Shown here: positions 16,426 through 56,131 of the stretch, one piece after another
Layout: every line of letters begins with the position of its first letter
Numbering within the stretch: position 1 is the first letter of the stretch
Made by a program: the position numbers and the translations under genes
Origin: a virus
Virus record (IMG/VR): IMGVR_UViG_3300042691_043434
Span: 1-64,000 of that record
DNA length: 64,000 nucleotides
Reading direction: 5' to 3' (one strand)
Notes under the pieces: model-generated
Told to the model about the DNA's origin: nothing
The model's database searches: none
The model's input: the letters and a program-made list of their open reading frames with translations, nothing else

Positions 16426-19400
16426 TCAGCCTTGGCACGCCAAGCATTCACCGTATTGCTCTTCGGCTTCACCAAGAAGTTTTGCGAGTCCCTCGTAACC
16501 ACCATCGATGTGTTTGCCGTTCAGCCAAATCTGAGGTACAGTGGTATACGGCCAATCGGAGTCGGTGATGGCGCTGCGGTCCATTTCCTGAATGACGTAG
16601 CCGTTAGCGGATAGTAGTTCTTTCGCTTTAACGCACCATGGGCAGTCGGGCTTAGTAACGACTAATGCGGCGTTATTGGATTGTTGCGATTTGGACTGCA
16701 CCTTCTTGACTTGCAAAGAACTCGATTTGAGGTAGTACAGGCTCTTGACTCCTGCCTTCCACGCACTTAGGTGAAGCCTCATTAGGTAATCGGCTGGCGC
16801 TTCGGGGTCGACAAATAGGTTGAGTGACTGCCCTTGGCACACATGTACTTGGCGATCCGCCGCCTGTTTGACCAACTCGAACTGGTCGATCTCCCGGGCG
16901 GTCTTAAAGACGTCTTTGGCATGCGGGCTCAGGAAGTCAAGGTGTTGTACGGAGCCGCGTTCATCTAAGATCGAGTCCCAGACATCCTGGGTGTTGTGGT
17001 TAATAGCCTCCAGATGCTTTTCAAGGTACGAGTTTCTACGGACAAACGTACCCTTCGCGTTGCTGGCCACAAACAGATTCGCGGTAAGCGGCTCGATACC
17101 TTCGGACACAGCGCCGCAGATCACGGAATTGGTCTTGGTTGGAGCAATGGCGATACGGGTCGCGTGCCTTACCCCATTGCCCTCGCACCATTCCGGTTCA
17201 CCGTATTCTCTCGCCATGTCCTGTGACGCCTTCAGGGTCATGTCATCAATCCAGCCGTGGACCTCGATGTTTAAAGTTCTAGCAGCACGAGAAGCGAATG
17301 GAAGGCCGCGTGACTGATAAAGGGCATGAAGACCCATAGTGCCAAGTCCGAGAGAACGAGATTTCTTCGCAAACCTAATAGCACGACCCATAGACGGAAT
17401 GCGCTCCGCTTTATGGATGAACTCAGTAACTACAGCGTCGAGAAAGTAAACTCCCAACTCCGGAACAGTTTTTCCCGTTACAGATCCTTTCCAGGTTTTC
17501 CACTCATCGTACTTAGCCAGATTCAACGAACTTAGAACACAAACGAAGGTATGGTTTTCGTCGGAGGGTAGAAAAATTTCCGAGCACAGGTTCGAAAATT
17601 TAATTTCTAAGTTTCTTTCAGTAAAACAAGCTGGTCTCTGAGTGTTAGCATTGTCAATGTATATAATATAAGGAGAACCAGAGATCATGCGGCACTTTAG
17701 TACTTCAGAGAAAATTTCTTGCTTATGACAATCACCGGATAACATCGACTCAATCCACTCATCAGTGATTGTAACTGCCAAGTTCGAATCGATAAACTGA
17801 CGTGGATCACCCTGGCTATGGTCCTTCGCCCTCAACGCATCCATCAGGTCGGGATGATCGATGGGGATGTAGAATGCAAATGATCCGCGTCGTGTATTGC
17901 CTTGAGATACAGTCGCTGCAGTACGATCATATAGACGCATCCAATCTACAATCGAACCGGATTTGCCCCCGCCACGGATTGGAGATCCGCTTGGACGCAG
18001 CTCACCAAAATAGCTACCGACACCACCACCATTCTTACTAAGGGCGGCTACTTCTTTCAGGTGGCTGAAGATACTGTTGGTGTCATCGGAGATTGAGTGG
18101 CTGTAGCAATTGTGTACAACAACTCCTTGGGCCACAAAGCTGTGGTCATCAGCTACTTCAATGTCCCACACAGTGGTTTCACGATCTTGCTTTTCAAGTT
18201 TAAATGACCGAGATAGTCCATATCCGGCAGGGCTACTTTTGGGCAAAATTACCCAGAAACAACCGTGATCTTCGTAGTTTAAGTCTTTCTCTTCGTTCCT
18301 ATTCTTATGGTATGTGGCAATATTACGAGCTAGAGAGGGAAACCTGCCAAGCAGGTGAGCCATATACCAAAGTTGATAGGCGAGCTTTTCGTTAGCTATA
18401 CCTATAGTGACAATCTCCCCGTTGTATTTTAGGGAGCCATCTCCAATAATGAAGCCGTCCAGAAATGCTTTCAAGGTTTCATCAGGTTGCTCAAAAAACC
18501 AGCCCGGGATAGTCTTTACTTTACAACCCTTACCAAACTCTTCATCAAAGAAAGACTGAAGATATTTGTTATGGATTTTTGCATGAGCATGCTCGTGACC
18601 CCTATTATTAGAGTAGATATCTTTAGTGCCCTTTAGGCCAAATTTATCTTCAGCTATTTTAAGCCAACGGTCAAGGTGTTCCTCTTCGTCCCAACCCATA
18701 GAAATTCCAATGGTGCCCCTGTCTGTAGTATGGCCTTCAGCAAACCATAATCCAAGCCACCAAGCCAGATCAAGATCAAGATAGCAGTTAGGGATTTCTT
18801 TTCCCTTAAAGCAGCCAGATCCCTTACAAAGCTGGGATGAACCCTTATTGTATCTTTGACTCCCAATTTTAAATTCAAAAACCTTTCTACGGTCTCTCCT
18901 GCGAAATACACTGGTGATAGGTTCAATGACAATTTGATGAGACTTAGGGTTTAAATCCTCGACTTTAACCCAACCTTCACTGGTTAAGATTGGATGGTTT
19001 CCGGTTACGTTTAAGTTATAACGTCCACGGTTGCTAACTGACAGTCGATAAAGATCTCCAGTTGTCTGACGAGACCATTTGTTAAGAACGGGCTTCCAAT
19101 TTCCGAGATGAGTTAACACGAGATCGCCAACTTCCAGATCCTGAATTTCCTTGAAACCATTGGGAGTGTGGATACGGGTACCAGTCTCCAAGCAACTGAC
19201 AGGAAGTCCTCTGTTCGTGCCGAAGTTACTTAGAACTGGTGTCGCACCACCAAAATATCCACGCCAAAACATCTCCATAATGTCTACTCCAATGCCGGGG
19301 AAGTTCAGGTGCTTTTCTGCGGCCATCGCGCATCGCTTCCACATGTCACGCGGAGTCTCACCAGGCATTAGGTACCCTTTGCTCAGTGTCTGCTGCGCCT

Positions 19401-19455
19401 CTTCATTTAGCCATTCCGGCTTGGTTGGCAGATTGTTGATGTCGAAAATTTCCAT
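16426..19455 (-). CDS. nrdA: ribonucleotide reductase large subunit with intein and fused glutaredoxin
   Basis: Taken from ATG 19455 (1009 residues; a TTG at 19476 in frame is the alternative). The class I large subunit converts ribonucleoside diphosphates to deoxy forms with NrdB. The intein-free chain is about 647 residues and appears to lack an ATP cone. Active-site cysteines are visible: the one after RGLPVS (the +1 residue after the intein, E. coli Cys225 equivalent), SNLCSEIF (Cys439 equivalent) and FVCVLSSLNL (Cys462 equivalent). A 362-residue intein occupies 88-449. Residues about 928-1000 are a glutaredoxin domain with CPWC (938-941), TVPQIWLNG and GG. The C-terminus GECLACQG keeps a CxxC redox tail. 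It lies downstream of nrdB in an operon with three intervening small genes. Confidence 0.93.
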   Translation of the reverse strand: MEIFDINNLPTKPEWLNEEAQQTLSKGYLMPGETPRDMWKRCAMAAEKHLNFPGIGVDIMEMFWRGYFGGATPVLSNFGTNRGLPVSCLETGTRIHTPNGFKEIQDLEVGDLVLTHLGNWKPVLNKWSRQTTGDLYRLSVSNRGRYNLNVTGNHPILTSEGWVKVEDLNPKSHQIVIEPITSVFRRRDRRKVFEFKIGSQRYNKGSSQLCKGSGCFKGKEIPNCYLDLDLAWWLGLWFAEGHTTDRGTIGISMGWDEEEHLDRWLKIAEDKFGLKGTKDIYSNNRGHEHAHAKIHNKYLQSFFDEEFGKGCKVKTIPGWFFEQPDETLKAFLDGFIIGDGSLKYNGEIVTIGIANEKLAYQLWYMAHLLGRFPSLARNIATYHKNRNEEKDLNYEDHGCFWVILPKSSPAGYGLSRSFKLEKQDRETTVWDIEVADDHSFVAQGVVVHNCYSHSISDDTNSIFSHLKEVAALSKNGGGVGSYFGELRPSGSPIRGGGKSGSIVDWMRLYDRTAATVSQGNTRRGSFAFYIPIDHPDLMDALRAKDHSQGDPRQFIDSNLAVTITDEWIESMLSGDCHKQEIFSEVLKCRMISGSPYIIYIDNANTQRPACFTERNLEIKFSNLCSEIFLPSDENHTFVCVLSSLNLAKYDEWKTWKGSVTGKTVPELGVYFLDAVVTEFIHKAERIPSMGRAIRFAKKSRSLGLGTMGLHALYQSRGLPFASRAARTLNIEVHGWIDDMTLKASQDMAREYGEPEWCEGNGVRHATRIAIAPTKTNSVICGAVSEGIEPLTANLFVASNAKGTFVRRNSYLEKHLEAINHNTQDVWDSILDERGSVQHLDFLSPHAKDVFKTAREIDQFELVKQAADRQVHVCQGQSLNLFVDPEAPADYLMRLHLSAWKAGVKSLYYLKSSSLQVKKVQSKSQQSNNAALVVTKPDCPWCVKAKELLSANGYVIQEMDRSAITDSDWPYTTVPQIWLNGKHIDGGYEGLAKLLGEAEEQYGECLACQG
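18109..19194 (-). mobile_element. intein with LAGLIDADG endonuclease in NrdA
   Basis: Reading the NrdA frame, 362 residues from Cys1 (CLETGTRIHT) to the terminal HN interrupt the enzyme between RGLPVS and CYSHSI. Splicing blocks are present: A with Cys1; B, TGNHPILTSEGW with the conserved His; F and G, TTVWDIEVADDHSFVAQ ending VVVHN. The +1 residue is Cys. The two LAGLIDADG helices read WWLGLWFAEGH and LKAFLDGFIIGDG with the acidic residue of each. The intein should splice itself out and the endonuclease cut an empty nrdA allele. Base composition looks more AT-rich than the flanking nrdA. Confidence 0.92.
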
Positions 19456-19525
19456 GTTAATAGTGTTAGGGCGCAAAATTCCATCCGTCCTTTAGACGGT
19501 TTGGTGTGTTAAAGGTATGTAAGTA

Positions 19526-19559: not shown

Positions 19560-20057
19560 TCATCCGTTTTTCTTCCACTCTGCTCCGGAGTCCATCAGGC
19601 CGTCGTTCCAGGCGTCTTCGACGTTCCGGCTCCGATCACACCAATACAAGTTGGAAAGCCTGTTGTCCGGCTTGCCGTCGGTCCCTGTCGGTTTTTTGTG
19701 ACACACAACAATGTGTTCGCCGGATGGTTTTTCAGGGCCGAAGAGCGACATCACAGCCTGATGTAAAAACGGTTCTTCTCGGTATGGAGTTCCGTTACGT
19801 TCCCAGGTCAGATTGACTCGGAATTTGCCACGGTCATCTGATCGTGGTTTACGATATTTAACTGTACCATTATCGTAGATTCGTCTTACCCTACCCATAT
19901 CACTCACCTGATAAGGAGAATCCTTCCACGCTTTCCACTGCTCGCGCTTCTCGTCGTTTTGGTCAAGTTGAGGGATTTCCTCAAACGACTCGGCGTCATC
20001 GACCTCGTTACCCTTGTTAACGCTCCACCCGTCCGGTACGTTGATATTGATGTCCAT
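19560..20057 (-). CDS. HNH endonuclease (NUMOD4-type) with N-terminal PDGW motif
   Basis: 165 residues from ATG 20057. After a 13-residue opening MDININVPDGWSV (the motif shared with small late proteins) and an acidic linker comes a NUMOD4-like DNA-binding segment (QWKAWKDSPYQVSDMGRVRR). An HNH core follows: FLHQAVMSLFG, EHIVVCHKKP and DNRLSNLYWCDRSRN. This architecture is typical of free-standing phage homing endonucleases. It sits between nrdB and nrdA, a frequent target of such elements. The usual N-terminus of these enzymes starts at NUMOD4, so the first 40 residues look like an addition. Confidence 0.82.
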   Translation of the reverse strand: MDININVPDGWSVNKGNEVDDAESFEEIPQLDQNDEKREQWKAWKDSPYQVSDMGRVRRIYDNGTVKYRKPRSDDRGKFRVNLTWERNGTPYREEPFLHQAVMSLFGPEKPSGEHIVVCHKKPTGTDGKPDNRLSNLYWCDRSRNVEDAWNDGLMDSGAEWKKNG

Positions 20058-20062
20058 AACGT

Positions 20063-20230
20063 CTAAATGTCCCACGCATCGATGGGGGCGCGAGCGTAAC
20101 GTTCTTGGTTTACACGCCGTTTATGAGCTAACTCCAGTAATCGATCGGCTTTACCGGCTTCAGTAATCAAACACACTGTACCGTATTCACGCTTCATGTA
20201 GTCTGAGTCTTTGTCAACTTTTTTCGTCAT
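20063..20230 (-). CDS. unknown 55-residue protein in nrd operon
   Basis: A small gene found by reading between neighbours: ATG 20230, TAG at 20063. It overlaps the end of 20214-20381 and stops 5 bases before the HNH start. The 55 residues are charged and helical (MTKKVDKDSDYMKREYG, AGKADRLLELAHKRR) with no recognised family. Tight packing on both sides supports it as coding. It belongs to the nrdB-nrdA transcription unit. Confidence 0.6.
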   Translation of the reverse strand: MTKKVDKDSDYMKREYGTVCLITEAGKADRLLELAHKRRVNQERYARAPIDAWDI

Positions 20231-20386: not shown

Positions 20387-21388
20387 CTATACTAGTGTAA
20401 GATCGAGGGCGGAGAGGTCGACTGACATCCAATCTTGGCTTGGTTTTGAAATATATGCCGAACCATCCTTCGCTTGCGAGAAAAAGTCGGAATTAGTCTG
20501 ACCCCGTACCATTGGGTCGAACCAGGAGGAAATGTTGGCAGCGAGTAAGCACTCGTTGTCAGTCATAGGCACGGTTAGATCGAGTCCTAAGGCGGCTAGA
20601 CGGTTATTTGCTCGGAGCTTGATGTAAGCTTTGAGGTCATCGAGAGCGATGGGAATAGCCGAATTGTCAATCTTGCTGAAGATATTCTCTAGAAAGCTGT
20701 ATTCGTTTTCGATAACAGTATAGAATCCGGCGAGAATCTCTTCGATTTCGTCGTTGGTGATACCGGTTTCTTTAACAAGTTCTTTAAAAAGTTCGCAACC
20801 GCCATTGCTATGTTGTCCTTCGTCGTTTTGGCTCCACGAGATAATTTGTGCCAAGCCTTTCATACGACCGGTTTTATTAAACGCAAGCAGCAGAGCGAAT
20901 GATGCGAACAAACTCACACCCTCACCCGCCCCACTAAATACAGCTAACGAGACTTTTTCCGAACTACACTCTGTAAAGAAACGTTCGACTTTTTGCTGTG
21001 CGGCTGGGTCGGACAGAAACGCTTCGAATTCGTTAATGCCCAGAGTATCGGATAAGTGATTGTACGCCTGAGCATGAATCTGCTCGAAGAAGCTGAAGGC
21101 GCGAGCCATAGCCAGGACTTCTGGCTTTGGAAACTTCCGGCATACCACATCGCCCCAATACTCAGAGATGCCCATCTCCATGACCGTGAACCCCCTAAGC
21201 ACCCCCGCAATGAGGTCACGCTCACTCCGGGTAAGGTTTTGTTGCCAGTCAACGACATCAGATCCCATGGCAACTTCTTCCGGGCGCCAGACTGACGCCA
21301 CAGCCTTCTTGTAGTATTCGAAGAATTCCGGGTAATCAAATCCACTGGCCTTTTTGTAGACCATTGGGGTATGGGACAGAATCGACAT
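20387..21388 (-). CDS. nrdB: ribonucleotide reductase small subunit
   Basis: 333 residues. The R2 di-iron and radical residues can be placed: Asp47 in SDVVDW, Glu102 and His105 in FEQIHAQAY with the tyrosyl-radical Tyr109 at the E. coli Tyr122 spacing, Glu156 in GAGEGVSL, Glu190 and His193 in NDEGQH. So it is a class I, tyrosyl-radical subunit that activates NrdA for deoxyribonucleotide synthesis. The C-terminal tail (SVDLSALDLTLV) would dock on NrdA. It is the first gene of the nrd operon, preceded by a TATACA -10 box. Confidence 0.93.
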   Translation of the reverse strand: MSILSHTPMVYKKASGFDYPEFFEYYKKAVASVWRPEEVAMGSDVVDWQQNLTRSERDLIAGVLRGFTVMEMGISEYWGDVVCRKFPKPEVLAMARAFSFFEQIHAQAYNHLSDTLGINEFEAFLSDPAAQQKVERFFTECSSEKVSLAVFSGAGEGVSLFASFALLLAFNKTGRMKGLAQIISWSQNDEGQHSNGGCELFKELVKETGITNDEIEEILAGFYTVIENEYSFLENIFSKIDNSAIPIALDDLKAYIKLRANNRLAALGLDLTVPMTDNECLLAANISSWFDPMVRGQTNSDFFSQAKDGSAYISKPSQDWMSVDLSALDLTLV

Positions 21389-23548: not shown

Positions 23549-24262
23549 CTAAAACCTCCTTACTTTTTCATGACCAACCCGTATAGACGGATTGACCCAC
23601 ATGTCTATTTTCGCGTCGCGTAAATTAAACGCGAAAGAAAGATCTTCTGATAGTACCTCGTAATCCTCGGAACGGTTGTAACGAATAATTTTTGGTGCAA
23701 ACCACGGGAATTTGAGTTTTTCCATGACTCCCTTCCGTATCAGCATCCAACCCATACCGCACCAATCAATACGATACGGTTCTTTTCTGTTTACAATGTC
23801 TGTGTCGTTTCGAAACGAATAAATATAGTCGATATCATAGATGGGTAACGGTGGATCATTAGGTTCAGGATAGGGGAACTCAGTTTTATTAAAATAACCG
23901 GTAACAGGTAAACCATTGGATTGATAGTACCAGCCAGTAGCTACTTCAACATTCATAGTAATCAAAGCATCGAAGTCGGAAGGCTTGAAATCGATGTCAG
24001 AGTCTATCCAAAGTAGGTAGTCATACACTAATTGATTAGTGAACGGTCTTTGATAAAGACCGTTGCTGTGGTGACCTCCAGCGACTTGTGCTCGTATTTG
24101 GTGGATTTCAGGCGAGTACCCTTGAGATAAAGTGGCGATTAGTCCGTATTTTCGCAAGTGATTCTCAAGTAGCACAAGATTTTCTACGAACCGGTAGGAA
24201 TACGTATAACCCGGAAGACAGATAACAACTCGAGAACCTGAATACGACGTAATATCGTGCAT
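23549..24262 (-). CDS. GT-A-type glycosyltransferase
   Basis: 237 residues from ATG 24262. It contains the DSD metal-binding motif in YDYLLWIDSDIDF, a following ATGWYYQSNGLPV block, and the acceptor-side MGWMLIRKGVMEKL segment. It ends RVGHEKVRRF, almost the same ending as its upstream neighbour. The two are tandem duplicates. Family 2-like GT-A enzymes add sugars to host envelope components, phage DNA or virion proteins. No membrane segment. Overall fold is clear, the sugar and acceptor are not. It is expressed with 24267-24983. Confidence 0.8.
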   Translation of the reverse strand: MHDITSYSGSRVVICLPGYTYSYRFVENLVLLENHLRKYGLIATLSQGYSPEIHQIRAQVAGGHHSNGLYQRPFTNQLVYDYLLWIDSDIDFKPSDFDALITMNVEVATGWYYQSNGLPVTGYFNKTEFPYPEPNDPPLPIYDIDYIYSFRNDTDIVNRKEPYRIDWCGMGWMLIRKGVMEKLKFPWFAPKIIRYNRSEDYEVLSEDLSFAFNLRDAKIDMWVNPSIRVGHEKVRRF

Positions 24263-24266
24263 GGCA

Positions 24267-24983
24267 TTAGATAACCCGAATCTTCTCATGGCCAACCCGA
24301 ACTTCAGGATTCATGACAATCTCAAAACCTGCATCGCGCAGACTGAGTTGGAACGACAAATCTTCTGACAACGTGTCAATGATCGTTTCAGTTGCTCGGA
24401 CGTTTTTTGGGGCAAACCATGGGTACGGAATTTTTTCCATTACTCCTTTTTTAATAAGCATCCAACCCATTCCAACCCAGTCAACCACATAAGAGTCGGT
24501 TTTATCGGAAATATCTTTATCTGGGCGAAACAAATAGGTGTGACCAGGGTCGTATAGAGGTAGTGACGGATGTGATTTTACCTTTTTACACGCAGACTTG
24601 TCAATGAATCCACAGGCCGGATTTCCATCTGGTTGGTAGTACCAACCTGTCGCGACATTGACACCCATTTCCAAAAGATCTGTGAAATTTTTTCGGTTGA
24701 ACACAATGTCCGAATCGATCCATAGCAGGTAATCGTAGTCGACTTCGGCTTCATCAAACGGTGTTTGAAACGTCCCTCTAGTGACATCTCCACCACCACA
24801 AATATTCCGTAGCCTGTGGATACAGGAAGAGTGAGTCTGGGCTAGGGTTACCTTTATGCCGTGAACAGCCAGCAGACTGTTAAGACCTACGATGTTTGTA
24901 AGAAAAGTCCCGGAGTAGTAGTCTCCAGGAAGGCAAAAAACAAATTTCTTGCCTTCGTATTTTTCGAGTAATGGGTCGGACAC
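24267..24983 (-). CDS. GT-A-type glycosyltransferase (paralogue)
   Basis: 238 residues. KFVFCLPGDYYSGTF opens the nucleotide-sugar fold. The DxD motif is DSD (90-92) in YLLWIDSDIVF. NVATGWYYQPDGNPACG, MGWMLIKKGVMEKI and the C-terminal RVGHEKIRVI match the downstream copy. So this is a tandem pair, with four bases between the genes. An extended -10 box (TGTTATAAT) lies about 30 bases before the ATG, so the pair looks early or middle. It may modify receptor polysaccharide or capsule, or virion proteins; both are inference. Confidence 0.8.
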   Translation of the reverse strand: MSDPLLEKYEGKKFVFCLPGDYYSGTFLTNIVGLNSLLAVHGIKVTLAQTHSSCIHRLRNICGGGDVTRGTFQTPFDEAEVDYDYLLWIDSDIVFNRKNFTDLLEMGVNVATGWYYQPDGNPACGFIDKSACKKVKSHPSLPLYDPGHTYLFRPDKDISDKTDSYVVDWVGMGWMLIKKGVMEKIPYPWFAPKNVRATETIIDTLSEDLSFQLSLRDAGFEIVMNPEVRVGHEKIRVI

Positions 24984-39639: not shown

Positions 39640-39963
39640 ATGACATCGGAATTTAAGTACCGGACAGTGTTTTTTACGATGCCTGGCTGTGCGGCATGCG
39701 AAGCTATGAAGCCGATTTGGGCTAAAGTGGCTGGTGAAGTAGCCGAAGAGTATCCAGAGCTCCGGGTGGGTTGGGGAGAATACGACGTTCTAGACGATAA
39801 CTGGGAATTTTTAGAGTCGCTTGTCCCTGGGACATCTGGTCAAGGGACCCCGGAGTTCGCCGTCTTTGACGATGAATGTGAACTCATTGCATTTAACGGT
39901 GATGGCATTATGGCCGCTAGCCAACTCAAAGACTTTATTATCTCATCCATCCATGGAGCTTAA
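39640..39963 (+). CDS. thioredoxin-fold protein with CAAC active site
   Basis: 107 residues. FFTMPGCAACEAMKPIW is the thioredoxin/glutaredoxin active site with CxxC = CAAC, and GTPEFAVFDD carries the cis-proline that follows. A redox role, for example as reductant or chaperone, is plausible. The CAAC dipeptide differs from the thioredoxin CGPC and the glutaredoxin CPYC, so the redox potential may be different. It overlaps the sigma gene start by 11 bases. Confidence 0.82.
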   Translation: MTSEFKYRTVFFTMPGCAACEAMKPIWAKVAGEVAEEYPELRVGWGEYDVLDDNWEFLESLVPGTSGQGTPEFAVFDDECELIAFNGDGIMAASQLKDFIISSIHGA

Positions 39964-52612: not shown

Positions 52613-55600
52613 TTAGGGGTTTACTAGGTCGGCCGGATTATATCCGGCATCGATAATAGATTGGTAACGGGTAGTAGTGCTGCTGTTTACTGTAGCAACT
52701 ACAGTTGGGGTGGTATTAGGAGACTGGTAGACAAATCCTAAATCAATTAAGATACCGCGTAGATTTTTATACAACAACGCGATGGGGTTTTCGGTTATTA
52801 TTTGCGTTTTTTGGGTACGTATTTTGTAGTACGTTCCGCTGATTAGTTCTCCAGGGATACGCACTGTCTTCGTACCAACGATGACACGACTGATTGTTGT
52901 AACACCACTGGAGCTGGTTGTCGTTTTTTCCTCATAGATATTGAACAGTTCGTCTCTGTACAAAGAAGTTACGACATCATTACCAGAAGAGACAGTAACC
53001 GGAAAGATTTCGTTTTGTGAGTAGTTAGAGTACTTGCCACTAGCATCTAACTTATTTAACGATAAACGGACTCTACAGTTACTAAAACGTTGGGAAGAAT
53101 CGATAGCGGAGATTTCAGATACTATGTCTCTAATTAAGTCAGTTGAGAGACCATTGCTTGAAAGGTCTACGGTAATTTTTCGTGAATTACCAGAAAACAC
53201 TCTGCCCAACGATCCTATCGTATAACCAGATATACCATTAACGCTTAAGTCTAACGCCGAGTATGAGTCGTCACGAATTGAACCAAAACCGCTGCGGATG
53301 TTAAGAGTACCGGACAGTTTACAATTTGATGCTCGGAATAAAAGCAAGCTATTAAAACCATTCTCAAACCACGTAGAAATATCGTTAGTTTGGCGGGAGA
53401 AGTACAAGGTAGATGGTAAAGTACCAAGAATATCTGAGTCAATTACCACGCTAGTGTCGTAAACTGATACGACCTTAGAAACCACCGGACCATTTGAAGA
53501 CGTTCGGATTTCATCGCCAACCTGAACAAGCTGCCTAAAATTACTCGTACCAGTAAGGACGTAGACATTGTCGGCTGGGTCAGGTTGAGTTGAACGAGTA
53601 AGAGAGAGGCCGGCAACTTCTGTTTGGGAGTCAGTAGCACGGACAACTGAACCTCGTAGCCCTGGTATCGACCAATCTGAACGGTACGTGGATGGTTGAG
53701 AGTTACTAATGTCTACTGTTTGTACGTTGGTAGTCGAAGTTCCGGAGAAGTTAGGGAGTAACGCTCCGCCCCCAGGTGAATTCTGTGACCACAGGACTAA
53801 GTTTCTTATATCCCTCGCAAAGTAAAAATTCGACGCGTTTATGCTAAGGTTTCTGAGGTCGTTAAAACTACAAGCGTCGGAATAGATATTGATCTCTTTG
53901 GTATCTGTCTCGTACTTTAATTTCAACGGGAATACTGGAAATTTTCCAGTTAATCCGCTATACCGTGAATTAAAATATGAGAGATTTACTAGATTTACAA
54001 GGTCTTTTTCTCTAAATCGATACGAAGGGGAGAAATAACTAACCTCGAATGAGGTGAGCCTATGTTCACTACCTTCCGGACGAGCCGAGGCAAAATTCTC
54101 TGGGAGTAAATAGTTAACTGTATTTGATACAACTGCACTAATTCCAGTACACGACCCGATGCTAATTGATTCTAGTGCTTCAGTGTCTAGAACGGTGCCG
54201 AGCTGTGGCATAGTTCCAGTTGTACCGGATCCAAACAAGAACAAGTTGCTAAGTTTTGGAACACGGAGAGGGGAAGCTGGAGTAGTGAACTGCGCACCGC
54301 CTGAAAAAGCAGCGTTAAGTGAGATTAGGTTTTCCCATGTAGAATTTTGAAGATTTATTGACAATCCAGAACCGGTATACACCATATTAATTCCCACAGT
54401 GTTGGTTTGCCATGCCGACCAGTTTTCACTAGGATTACCGATATAACCGGAGATATTGTTTGTTATAGAGTATTGACCCCCTACGTTAAAGTTTACGAAC
54501 TTGTATTTAGATACATGACCACTGTTTGATGGGTTTGTTGAAGTACCGATATCAAGTAAGCTACCAGACGCACCAGAGGATTCTATATCGTAACTGAGTA
54601 AATTACCATTATTGTTCATTTTTGGTAGTGAACCAAAAAGAAATCTGTAGGATCGAGCTCTTTTTCTTGACCAAGACAGGTTTCTTAGATCTGGAAATAC
54701 GTCATCGAAACGTGGGCTAAAGCCATAAAACCTGTCTCCGAGCGAAAGAGTATTTAGAGCGGAGAATTGTCGATAGTCAGTTTCAGCGGTGCGAGACTGA
54801 TTAAGAACATACTTTTCAAATAATACGTCCGACCAGTCATCCCCGTCTTCGTTAACAATCGCACCGGTCTTCGGAATGGTTAGGTAGCTGATGCCTGTAT
54901 ATAGCGGGAATGAAAATGATGGTGTTGCCGAGCTATCCCTGTAGTCAAACCACCCCATTGGACCGCTGCGCCATGTATCCCCTGAACCAGATAAATCCAA
55001 AGTACGGAGTTTGTTGCCAAGGGTTTTAAGCCATAATGGCAGAACGGTCATCGATCCGCCAGACATTGTAAATATTTCTAAGTTATTAAAACCAATGAGT
55101 CCCAGATCTTTTCGATCGGGGAATTCGCGAACATCTATACCAGAAAATTCAATGCCTTTAACTTTTTCCGGATTAACGTAAAGGTACAGGTACAAATCGT
55201 AGAGATTTTGATAACCGGTTGTTGTAATATCTATATTTAGCGTGAACGTTGTCGAACCTTCCGTTTGAGTTTGTTGTGTAACAGGGAGAAATCCAACTAA
55301 CGGTGAGTTGGGTCGTTGTTGTGCCGGTTGAATTTGATAACCAAAAAAGTACGGAGCGGTAGAATCAGTAAACGTAAAACGGATTTGACCTGTTGCCAAT
55401 CGGCAATACACCCGTAGAGGAGTGTTCTTCGTAGCTAATAGCCGTACGGGTACCGTAGCCCCGGTGTTGCCGTTATCGACATTTACTGTAATCGCATGAG
55501 ACGGATTCTCAACAACCGGAGATTTGGTTAAAAAGGAGGATTTAGGTAAAATAATACGGTTGACGTGGGAACGGCGTCGAACTCTAATCGATCCAGGGTA

Positions 55601-56131
55601 CAACGCACTTAAAAAATAACCAACATTGTTCGGATCAGTTTCAGCGTTAAATAAACTAGCTCTGGATGTCGACAACGCAACATTTTTTCTATCTGGGTTA
55701 GAAAAAAGCGAGCCTCCTATCGTATTTGTCCGGTATTGTGCACCGGAACATTGAATAGAACCGTTAAAAACAATGACGTTTGGTGTATTTTGACTTGGTG
55801 ACCCTATGCCTCCCAGGGGAAATTCCGGACTATAGTATTCCTTGTTGATATAAAGTCGAGTTGGAATACTGTCATTATAGACAGTGTGGATCTGATGAAG
55901 AGATGGTAAAAGAAGACGAGATAGGCCCGATGCGGATCGTAGATCTTCGCGAGTTATTGGTTCTGAGACACCATATAGACGATCGAGAATCTCTGGGCGA
56001 ATTAATATATTCCGTAACGCGTCACGTTTATCGGAATCAAAAATTTCCGCGAGATTAGCCGTGCTGTCGGAAACTAATCCGATGTCTGGCCGAGAAAACC
56101 TGCCAAATCCTGGGAAAAAGGAATCCGCCAT
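52613..56131 (-). CDS. leucine-rich-repeat virion protein (candidate adhesin)
   Basis: 1172 residues, 29 bases after a late motif. The first 330 residues are structural and beta-rich, with NPSHAITVNVDNGNTGATV. From about 340 on, irregular leucine-rich repeats are visible: LGLIGFNNLEIFTMSGGSMTVLP, LRTLDLSGSG, LNTLSLGDRFYG, FPDLRNLSWSRK, LTSFEVSYFSPS, LRNLSINASN, ALDLSVNGISGYTIGS and KITVDLSSNGLS. LRR solenoids bind proteins or sugars, so a receptor-binding role is plausible. The last 100 residues are a separate helical and beta end. LRRs are uncommon in phage structural genes. Confidence 0.68.
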   Translation of the reverse strand: MADSFFPGFGRFSRPDIGLVSDSTANLAEIFDSDKRDALRNILIRPEILDRLYGVSEPITREDLRSASGLSRLLLPSLHQIHTVYNDSIPTRLYINKEYYSPEFPLGGIGSPSQNTPNVIVFNGSIQCSGAQYRTNTIGGSLFSNPDRKNVALSTSRASLFNAETDPNNVGYFLSALYPGSIRVRRRSHVNRIILPKSSFLTKSPVVENPSHAITVNVDNGNTGATVPVRLLATKNTPLRVYCRLATGQIRFTFTDSTAPYFFGYQIQPAQQRPNSPLVGFLPVTQQTQTEGSTTFTLNIDITTTGYQNLYDLYLYLYVNPEKVKGIEFSGIDVREFPDRKDLGLIGFNNLEIFTMSGGSMTVLPLWLKTLGNKLRTLDLSGSGDTWRSGPMGWFDYRDSSATPSFSFPLYTGISYLTIPKTGAIVNEDGDDWSDVLFEKYVLNQSRTAETDYRQFSALNTLSLGDRFYGFSPRFDDVFPDLRNLSWSRKRARSYRFLFGSLPKMNNNGNLLSYDIESSGASGSLLDIGTSTNPSNSGHVSKYKFVNFNVGGQYSITNNISGYIGNPSENWSAWQTNTVGINMVYTGSGLSINLQNSTWENLISLNAAFSGGAQFTTPASPLRVPKLSNLFLFGSGTTGTMPQLGTVLDTEALESISIGSCTGISAVVSNTVNYLLPENFASARPEGSEHRLTSFEVSYFSPSYRFREKDLVNLVNLSYFNSRYSGLTGKFPVFPLKLKYETDTKEINIYSDACSFNDLRNLSINASNFYFARDIRNLVLWSQNSPGGGALLPNFSGTSTTNVQTVDISNSQPSTYRSDWSIPGLRGSVVRATDSQTEVAGLSLTRSTQPDPADNVYVLTGTSNFRQLVQVGDEIRTSSNGPVVSKVVSVYDTSVVIDSDILGTLPSTLYFSRQTNDISTWFENGFNSLLLFRASNCKLSGTLNIRSGFGSIRDDSYSALDLSVNGISGYTIGSLGRVFSGNSRKITVDLSSNGLSTDLIRDIVSEISAIDSSQRFSNCRVRLSLNKLDASGKYSNYSQNEIFPVTVSSGNDVVTSLYRDELFNIYEEKTTTSSSGVTTISRVIVGTKTVRIPGELISGTYYKIRTQKTQIITENPIALLYKNLRGILIDLGFVYQSPNTTPTVVATVNSSTTTRYQSIIDAGYNPADLVNP

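Follow-up and report, generated by a model that had tools for sequence, protein, structure and literature searches.

A glutaredoxin domain inserted into the C-terminal arm of class Id-like NrdA in phages

The nrdA locus and the domains of its product

The window analysed in the present study is the whole stretch of 64,000 nucleotides taken from the virus record IMGVR_UViG_3300042691_043434 (positions 1 to 64,000 of 68,712 bases). A frame of 1016 codons without a stop (16426..19476, minus strand; Pfam Ribonuc_red_lgC, E 5.5e-100) encodes an intein-containing, class Id-like NrdA with a glutaredoxin (Grx) near its C-terminus. The listed start is a TTG, and the ATG at 19455 (MEIFD) is more likely to be the start. 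The gene of the radical-generating subunit, nrdB (20387..21388, minus strand; PF00268, E 1e-53), lies upstream of nrdA, and a dUTPase gene follows nrdA. Between nrdB and nrdA, a NUMOD4-bearing ORF (19560-20075, minus strand) was observed, which by eye is of the HNH homing endonuclease type; in the cyanophage S-TIM5, nrdB and nrdA are likewise separated by a gene for an HNH endonuclease. Elsewhere in the window, two adjacent, overlapping ORFs (23549-24295 and 24267-24983, minus strand) appear by eye to be tandem duplicates, and a protein of 1172 residues (52613-56131, minus strand), which adjoins other long ORFs, contains stretches that by eye resemble leucine-rich repeats; no Pfam match was obtained for these three ORFs.

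The NrdA frame contains an intein of 362 residues with a LAGLIDADG endonuclease (residues 95-456; 18109..19194, minus strand), recognised through the Pfam families Intein_splicing and LAGLIDADG_3 and through the intein-free close relatives L003 and L007 (the compared loci are numbered with L, and L001 is the window itself). The intein stands directly before the first redox-site cysteine of the NrdA barrel, which is its +1 cysteine (18106-18108, minus strand). The spliced NrdA of the window is predicted to have 647 residues, and the naturally intein-free L007 has 648. The NrdA intein is also present in L002, and an intein is annotated in the NrdA of S-CBWM1 as well.

The NrdA of the window is the catalytic subunit of a class I ribonucleotide reductase (RNR) and belongs to the class Id-like or NrdAi group. 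The structure nearest to the model of L007 in a Foldseek search was 6dqw, the class Id alpha subunit of F. johnsoniae (TM 0.97 by target length, 40% identity), and 6dqx, also class Id alpha, was among the nearest. Six residues, C91, C265, E267, C280, Y548 and Y549 (L007 numbering), are invariant in 40 relatives, and their motifs are also present in the window NrdA; we take these residues to be the redox cysteine pair, the thiyl cysteine, the glutamate and the radical-transfer Tyr-Tyr. The best solved relatives of the window NrdB were 9dws, 6sf4/5olk and 6cwo, of which 6sf4, 5olk and 6cwo are presumably NrdB proteins of the class Id type, and a manganese(IV,III) cofactor is putative for this subunit. 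Moreover, the accessible part of PMC6370689 assigns the NrdA of S-TIM5 to NrdAi and names this group as being without the N-terminal ATP cone. The Pfam scan of the window NrdA gave no ATP cone match.

Downstream of the Tyr-Tyr, the window NrdA consists of a variable arm of 21 residues (916-936; 16669..16731, minus strand), a glutaredoxin domain (937-1002; 16471..16668, minus strand) and a C-terminal tail of 14 residues, EAEEQYGECLACQG (16429..16470, minus strand), in which the redox pair Cys1011 and Cys1014 forms part of the motif ECLACQG (16429-16449, minus strand). The marks of a dithiol glutaredoxin are all present, namely the CPxC active site (CPWC, 16633-16644), the cis-proline of TVP (16534-16542) and GG (16498-16503), each on the minus strand. 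The Pfam family Glutaredoxin (PF00462) matched residues 939-990 (E 2.5e-8; 34.4 bits, cut-off 22.9). In a phmmer search against the PDB, the best match of the domain was HI0572 of Haemophilus influenzae (1nm3, E 4.2e-8), which we take to be a peroxiredoxin-glutaredoxin hybrid, and glutaredoxin 3 (1fov, E 3.7e-7) and other glutaredoxins were also matched. On these motifs and matches, the domain is a dithiol glutaredoxin of PF00462, with disulfide reduction dependent on glutathione (GSH) as its putative activity. The sequence-only reading had placed CPWC, TVP and GG, followed by ECLACQG, at the C-terminus of NrdA, and the coordinates and matches bear this out; its figure of 82 residues for 16426-16671 needs correction, as this stretch holds residues 936-1016 and the stop codon, i.e. 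81 residues. The presence of the glutaredoxin is not a matter of chance, because relatives keep the same order of domains.

Insertion into the arm and spread of the fused form

Comparison with unfused proteins shows that the glutaredoxin is a true domain insertion: it interrupts the arm that runs from the radical-transfer Tyr-Tyr to the C-terminal CxxC. Such a position, after the core and ahead of the CxxC tail, had been claimed from the window, and the unfused relatives agree with it, since their arm is the same and also ends in this CxxC but lacks the glutaredoxin. For example, in the lineage called clade B below, the arm of the unfused L093, LRTTAGVTAEKVGTKVDRNALKDFEDDEGCVSCQG, matches that of the fused L043, LRTTAGRTADKVGQSVERHALKDDED, residue by residue, and in L043 this arm is followed by the glutaredoxin and then by EDDEECVACQG. 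The distance from the Tyr-Tyr to the glutaredoxin is 26-33 residues in clade B (mostly 26) and 13-21 residues in clade A (for the distance and conservation counts, the clade labels were assigned by hand from the tails and the core tree), and the distance from the Tyr-Tyr to the first tail cysteine is 13-29 residues in 37 complete unfused proteins. Thus, the glutaredoxin stands approximately where the cysteine pair usually stands, and the pair has been moved beyond it. A different change was seen in the unfused NrdA of L242, the arm of which is lengthened and carries an extra cysteine ahead of the terminal CxxC.

The fused order was found repeatedly. Comparison with cyanophage NrdA, which the sequence-only reading had advised, revealed the same core-Grx-CxxC order in S-TIM5, S-TIM54, S-TIM61, S-TIM66 and S-CBWM1. 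The S-TIM proteins share the order core-arm-Grx-ECxACxG and are 57-61% identical to the window NrdA over the C-terminal 268 residues; they differ from it in having no intein, and their annotation reads NrdA or large subunit, with no mention of the glutaredoxin. A C-terminal NrdA query matched 918 of 50,697 phage records, and the fused order is present in at least 12 phage records representing nine phages, i.e. the five named above together with C48C1, PhiW-14, nACB2 and SH-Ab 15599 (the C-termini were inspected for eight of the nine, and S-TIM66 is included from a tblastn alignment). In addition, dozens of uncultivated virus contigs share the core-arm-Grx-CxxC order. A one-off oddity was rejected on the basis of this recurrence in isolate phages and contigs. 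Misassembly, or read-through from nrdA into a neighbouring grx gene, might be suspected from the Agrobacterium phage Atu_ph07, the Sinorhizobium phage Phosso and the Rhizobium phage RHph_N1_10, each of which has a free-standing grx gene directly downstream of nrdA. However, read-through would give core-CxxC-Grx and not the observed core-Grx-CxxC, and the recurrence of the latter in isolate genomes and many contigs refutes an artefact, the probability of which we consider negligible.

The frequency of the fused form was estimated in two scans. In the first, which used fused proteins as the query and favours fused relatives, the NrdA core end was present in all 105 loci, and 67 were fused and 38 unfused among the matches listed. 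In the later scan, the query was an alignment of cores alone, headed by an unfused protein, and the ranking was by similarity to that protein. Here the core end could be read in 77 of 80 loci, the three without one having been set aside, and 22 of these 77 were fused among the matches listed. Several of the loci gathered come from the same contigs (e.g. L004/L019, L006/L021, L093/L214, L043/L237 and L052/L247). Of 80 genome loci from the closest cellular relatives, most of which are Bacteroidota according to their record titles, 78 were unfused, and an origin of the fused form in cells of this near kin was rejected. The remaining two, L113 and L114, are fused and share one tail sequence; both are located on short MAG contigs, show 61% identity to the query, and are probably phage sequence.

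In a tree of 72 of the 105 NrdA cores, 33 near-copies having been left out, the fused proteins were located in two separated clades, and at least four state changes are needed. Clade A is fused throughout (19/19) and includes the window, S-TIM5 and S-CBWM1; clade B comprises 27 fused and three nested unfused proteins and includes C48C1, PhiW-14 and nACB2. A single clade of all fused NrdA proteins was rejected by the AU test (p-AU 5.5e-39), a result that is compatible with one gain followed by several losses. The core sequences fit two histories, namely at least two gains of the glutaredoxin in the NrdA arm, or one gain and several losses, and the unfused proteins nested in clade B, e.g. L093, suggest gain and loss of the domain within that clade as well. 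Two trees of the glutaredoxin alone, each built from 74 columns and poorly resolved, are partly at odds and too short to decide origins. In the first, neither clade A nor clade B formed one side of a branch, and free phage glutaredoxins were placed inside A; in the second, for which some of the free glutaredoxins were different, one side of a branch was formed by A (97/93) and likewise by B (81/18).

Other positions of the glutaredoxin

In all 25 virus records with a fused NrdA, which are mostly contigs, possibly fragments, and include six isolate phage records, the sole PF00462 match was inside the NrdA frame; in the record of the window, the only match was likewise in NrdA, with none in NrdB. 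At least one free glutaredoxin was found in six of 18 unfused records, and no glutaredoxin was found in the other 12 (Fisher's test for a free glutaredoxin in fused versus unfused records, p 0.003, with kinship and fragment length ignored). Among the matches listed, 15 unfused loci had a glutaredoxin ORF in the flanks, which in 11 was the N-terminus of the downstream NrdB, in three was a short stand-alone gene upstream of nrdA, and in one (L233) was cut off. The 11 loci with the fusion in the 3' flank of nrdA (L231, L232, L238, L240-L246 and L249) are kin of clade B and represent the published Grx::NrdB type; these calls were read from translations, and Pfam confirmed L232, the one tested. No second glutaredoxin was observed in the flanks of 22 fused loci among the matches listed. 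For one locus, L224, a flanking glutaredoxin ORF was flagged in one flank analysis and absent in the other. The NrdB of PhiW-14 (L015, 4862-5902) is annotated as 'bifunctional gluaredoxin/ribonucleoside-diphosphate reductase subunit beta', and the only PF00462 match of that genome is in NrdA; the annotation looks copied from Francisella.

To judge from these related loci, the glutaredoxin is exchangeable among the NrdA arm, NrdB and a free gene, as is expected if the glutaredoxin is the reductant of the RNR. According to the accessible part of PMC6187632, Grx::NrdB fusions are known in Facklamia ignava, Francisella and viruses, and in Facklamia the NrdB-fused glutaredoxin was demonstrated to reduce its RNR. 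A different role would follow if the tail were reduced by a host thioredoxin or glutaredoxin, with the inserted domain sensing glutathionylation, holding subunits or acting similarly. Most bacteria have redoxins. Moreover, the presence of a thioredoxin-family gene in S-TIM5 and a weak thioredoxin-family match in the window (39664-39900, plus strand; E 8.3e-4, under the Pfam cut-off) make other electron donors possible, and many unfused relatives in which no glutaredoxin was found indicate that a phage glutaredoxin is not always needed. However, the catalytic residues of the inserted domain are kept (CxxC, the proline of TVP and the second glycine of GG), and the exchange of the domain among NrdA, NrdB and a free gene fits the reductant role reported for the Facklamia fusion; we therefore regard a host redoxin as the reductant of the tail as unlikely.

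Conserved cysteines, structural models and the proposed electron route

In class I RNR, a C-terminal cysteine pair re-reduces the active site, and this pair is recharged by thioredoxin, glutaredoxin or NrdH (accessible parts of PMC6187632 and PMC5704485). Several observations concern the cysteines of the fused proteins. First, among the matches listed in the first set, which comprised 67 fused proteins, four of them cut by contig ends, every one of the 63 complete proteins, which come from two lineages, retains the terminal CxxC, and the CxxC of the glutaredoxin is present in 67 of 67. Second, both pairs are kept in 22 of 22 complete fused proteins of the later, partly overlapping sample, again among the matches listed. 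Third, in an alignment of 40 fused proteins (L007 numbering), C643 and C646 are the sole invariant columns of the tail, the invariant columns of the glutaredoxin are C577, C580, P613, Q614 and G625, and the linker has none. If either pair were idle, it would be expected to have been lost in some fused protein.

AlphaFold models were obtained for two intein-free relatives, one per clade, L007 and L078 (660 residues). In both models the core is ordered, the arm has pLDDT below 50 (552-565 in L007, 552-570 in L078), the glutaredoxin is ordered with pLDDT mostly 80-91, and the tail again has pLDDT below 50 (636-648 and 645-660, respectively). The earlier statement that the reductant is tethered holds as a predicted architecture of flexible arm, folded glutaredoxin and flexible tail. 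A direct reduction of the active-site disulfide by the glutaredoxin, with the terminal CxxC dispensable or spare, might be considered, as the domain of clade B starts approximately where unfused kin have their CxxC, which would put its active site at the end of the arm. The cleft of the RNR barrel is narrow, however, and a folded domain of approximately 70 residues is unlikely to enter it; the tail pair is also the one invariant feature of the tail and is retained in every complete fused protein of the first set. Direct reduction is, in our judgement, very improbable.

Herein, we propose, with a probability of roughly 0.7, that these proteins are self-reducing class Id-like NrdA enzymes in which a glutaredoxin in the swinging arm passes electrons from GSH through its CPWC to the CxxC of the tail and on to the active site. 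First, after turnover, the active-site disulfide Cys91/Cys280 (L007 numbering) would be reduced by the tail pair Cys643/Cys646. Second, the tail disulfide would be reduced by the CPWC of the tethered glutaredoxin (Cys577/Cys580), of the same chain or of the partner chain in the dimer, a step that proximity would help. Third, the glutaredoxin would be recharged by host glutathione, and the enzyme would turn over on GSH without a separate redoxin. In the fused proteins, 15-33 residues, last helix included, separate the GG motif from the first cysteine of the tail, and delivery of so short a tail would demand a glutaredoxin docked close to the cleft. We infer this electron route, GSH as the donor and the docking near the active-site cleft, from which the short tail could reach in; the tail may be handed to the active site by the glutaredoxin domain, as the sequence-only reading had suggested. 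A broader proposal is tentative, and we give it somewhat less than even odds: at least twice, phages may have made the RNR arm self-charging by means of a glutaredoxin cartridge that docks over the cleft, hands in the terminal CxxC and then reduces it again; glutathione alone would suffice to run the enzyme. In the course of evolution, this cartridge would move among the NrdA arm, the N-terminus of NrdB and a free gene, and if it occupies the NrdA arm, the other two positions would be empty.

Several known systems resemble the window NrdA in part. In HI0572, a glutaredoxin is likewise tethered to a client enzyme; the client is a peroxiredoxin, however, and the glutaredoxin is terminal and does not precede a redox tail. 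The Facklamia-type Grx::NrdB also joins a dithiol glutaredoxin covalently to a subunit of a class I RNR, at the N-terminus of NrdB as given in the accessible part of PMC6187632, whereas in the window it lies inside the C-terminal arm of NrdA. The cysteine-rich C-terminal domain of class II NrdJ is similarly an extra C-terminal domain with redox cysteines serving the active site, but in the accessible part of PMC5704485 it is a zinc-binding, six-cysteine domain and not a glutaredoxin, for which the authors found no glutaredoxin or thioredoxin partner. The sequence-only reading had depended on the fusion not being a common, well-described form. Common it is, being present in many virus contigs; as to its description, one sentence was found in print, in the accessible part of PMC6187632, which mentions 'grx::nrdA in two viruses', and the accessible part of PMC6370689 mentions a fused glutaredoxin for the beta subunit only. 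No description of the arm insertion or of its spread was found in the literature searched, most subscription journals being outside its reach. Glutaredoxin fusions to RNR are known, and what is new, as far as found, is the insertion in the NrdA arm and its spread.

Structural work has difficulty in capturing the reach of the RNR tail and its recharging by a separate redoxin, since the elements involved are mobile and touch one another only briefly. With donor, relay and acceptor on one chain, these NrdA proteins could help to trap such states. For the phages, the results suggest that they bring a reductase tied to their RNR, and that the dNTP supply would depend on the glutathione of the host and not on host redoxin proteins.
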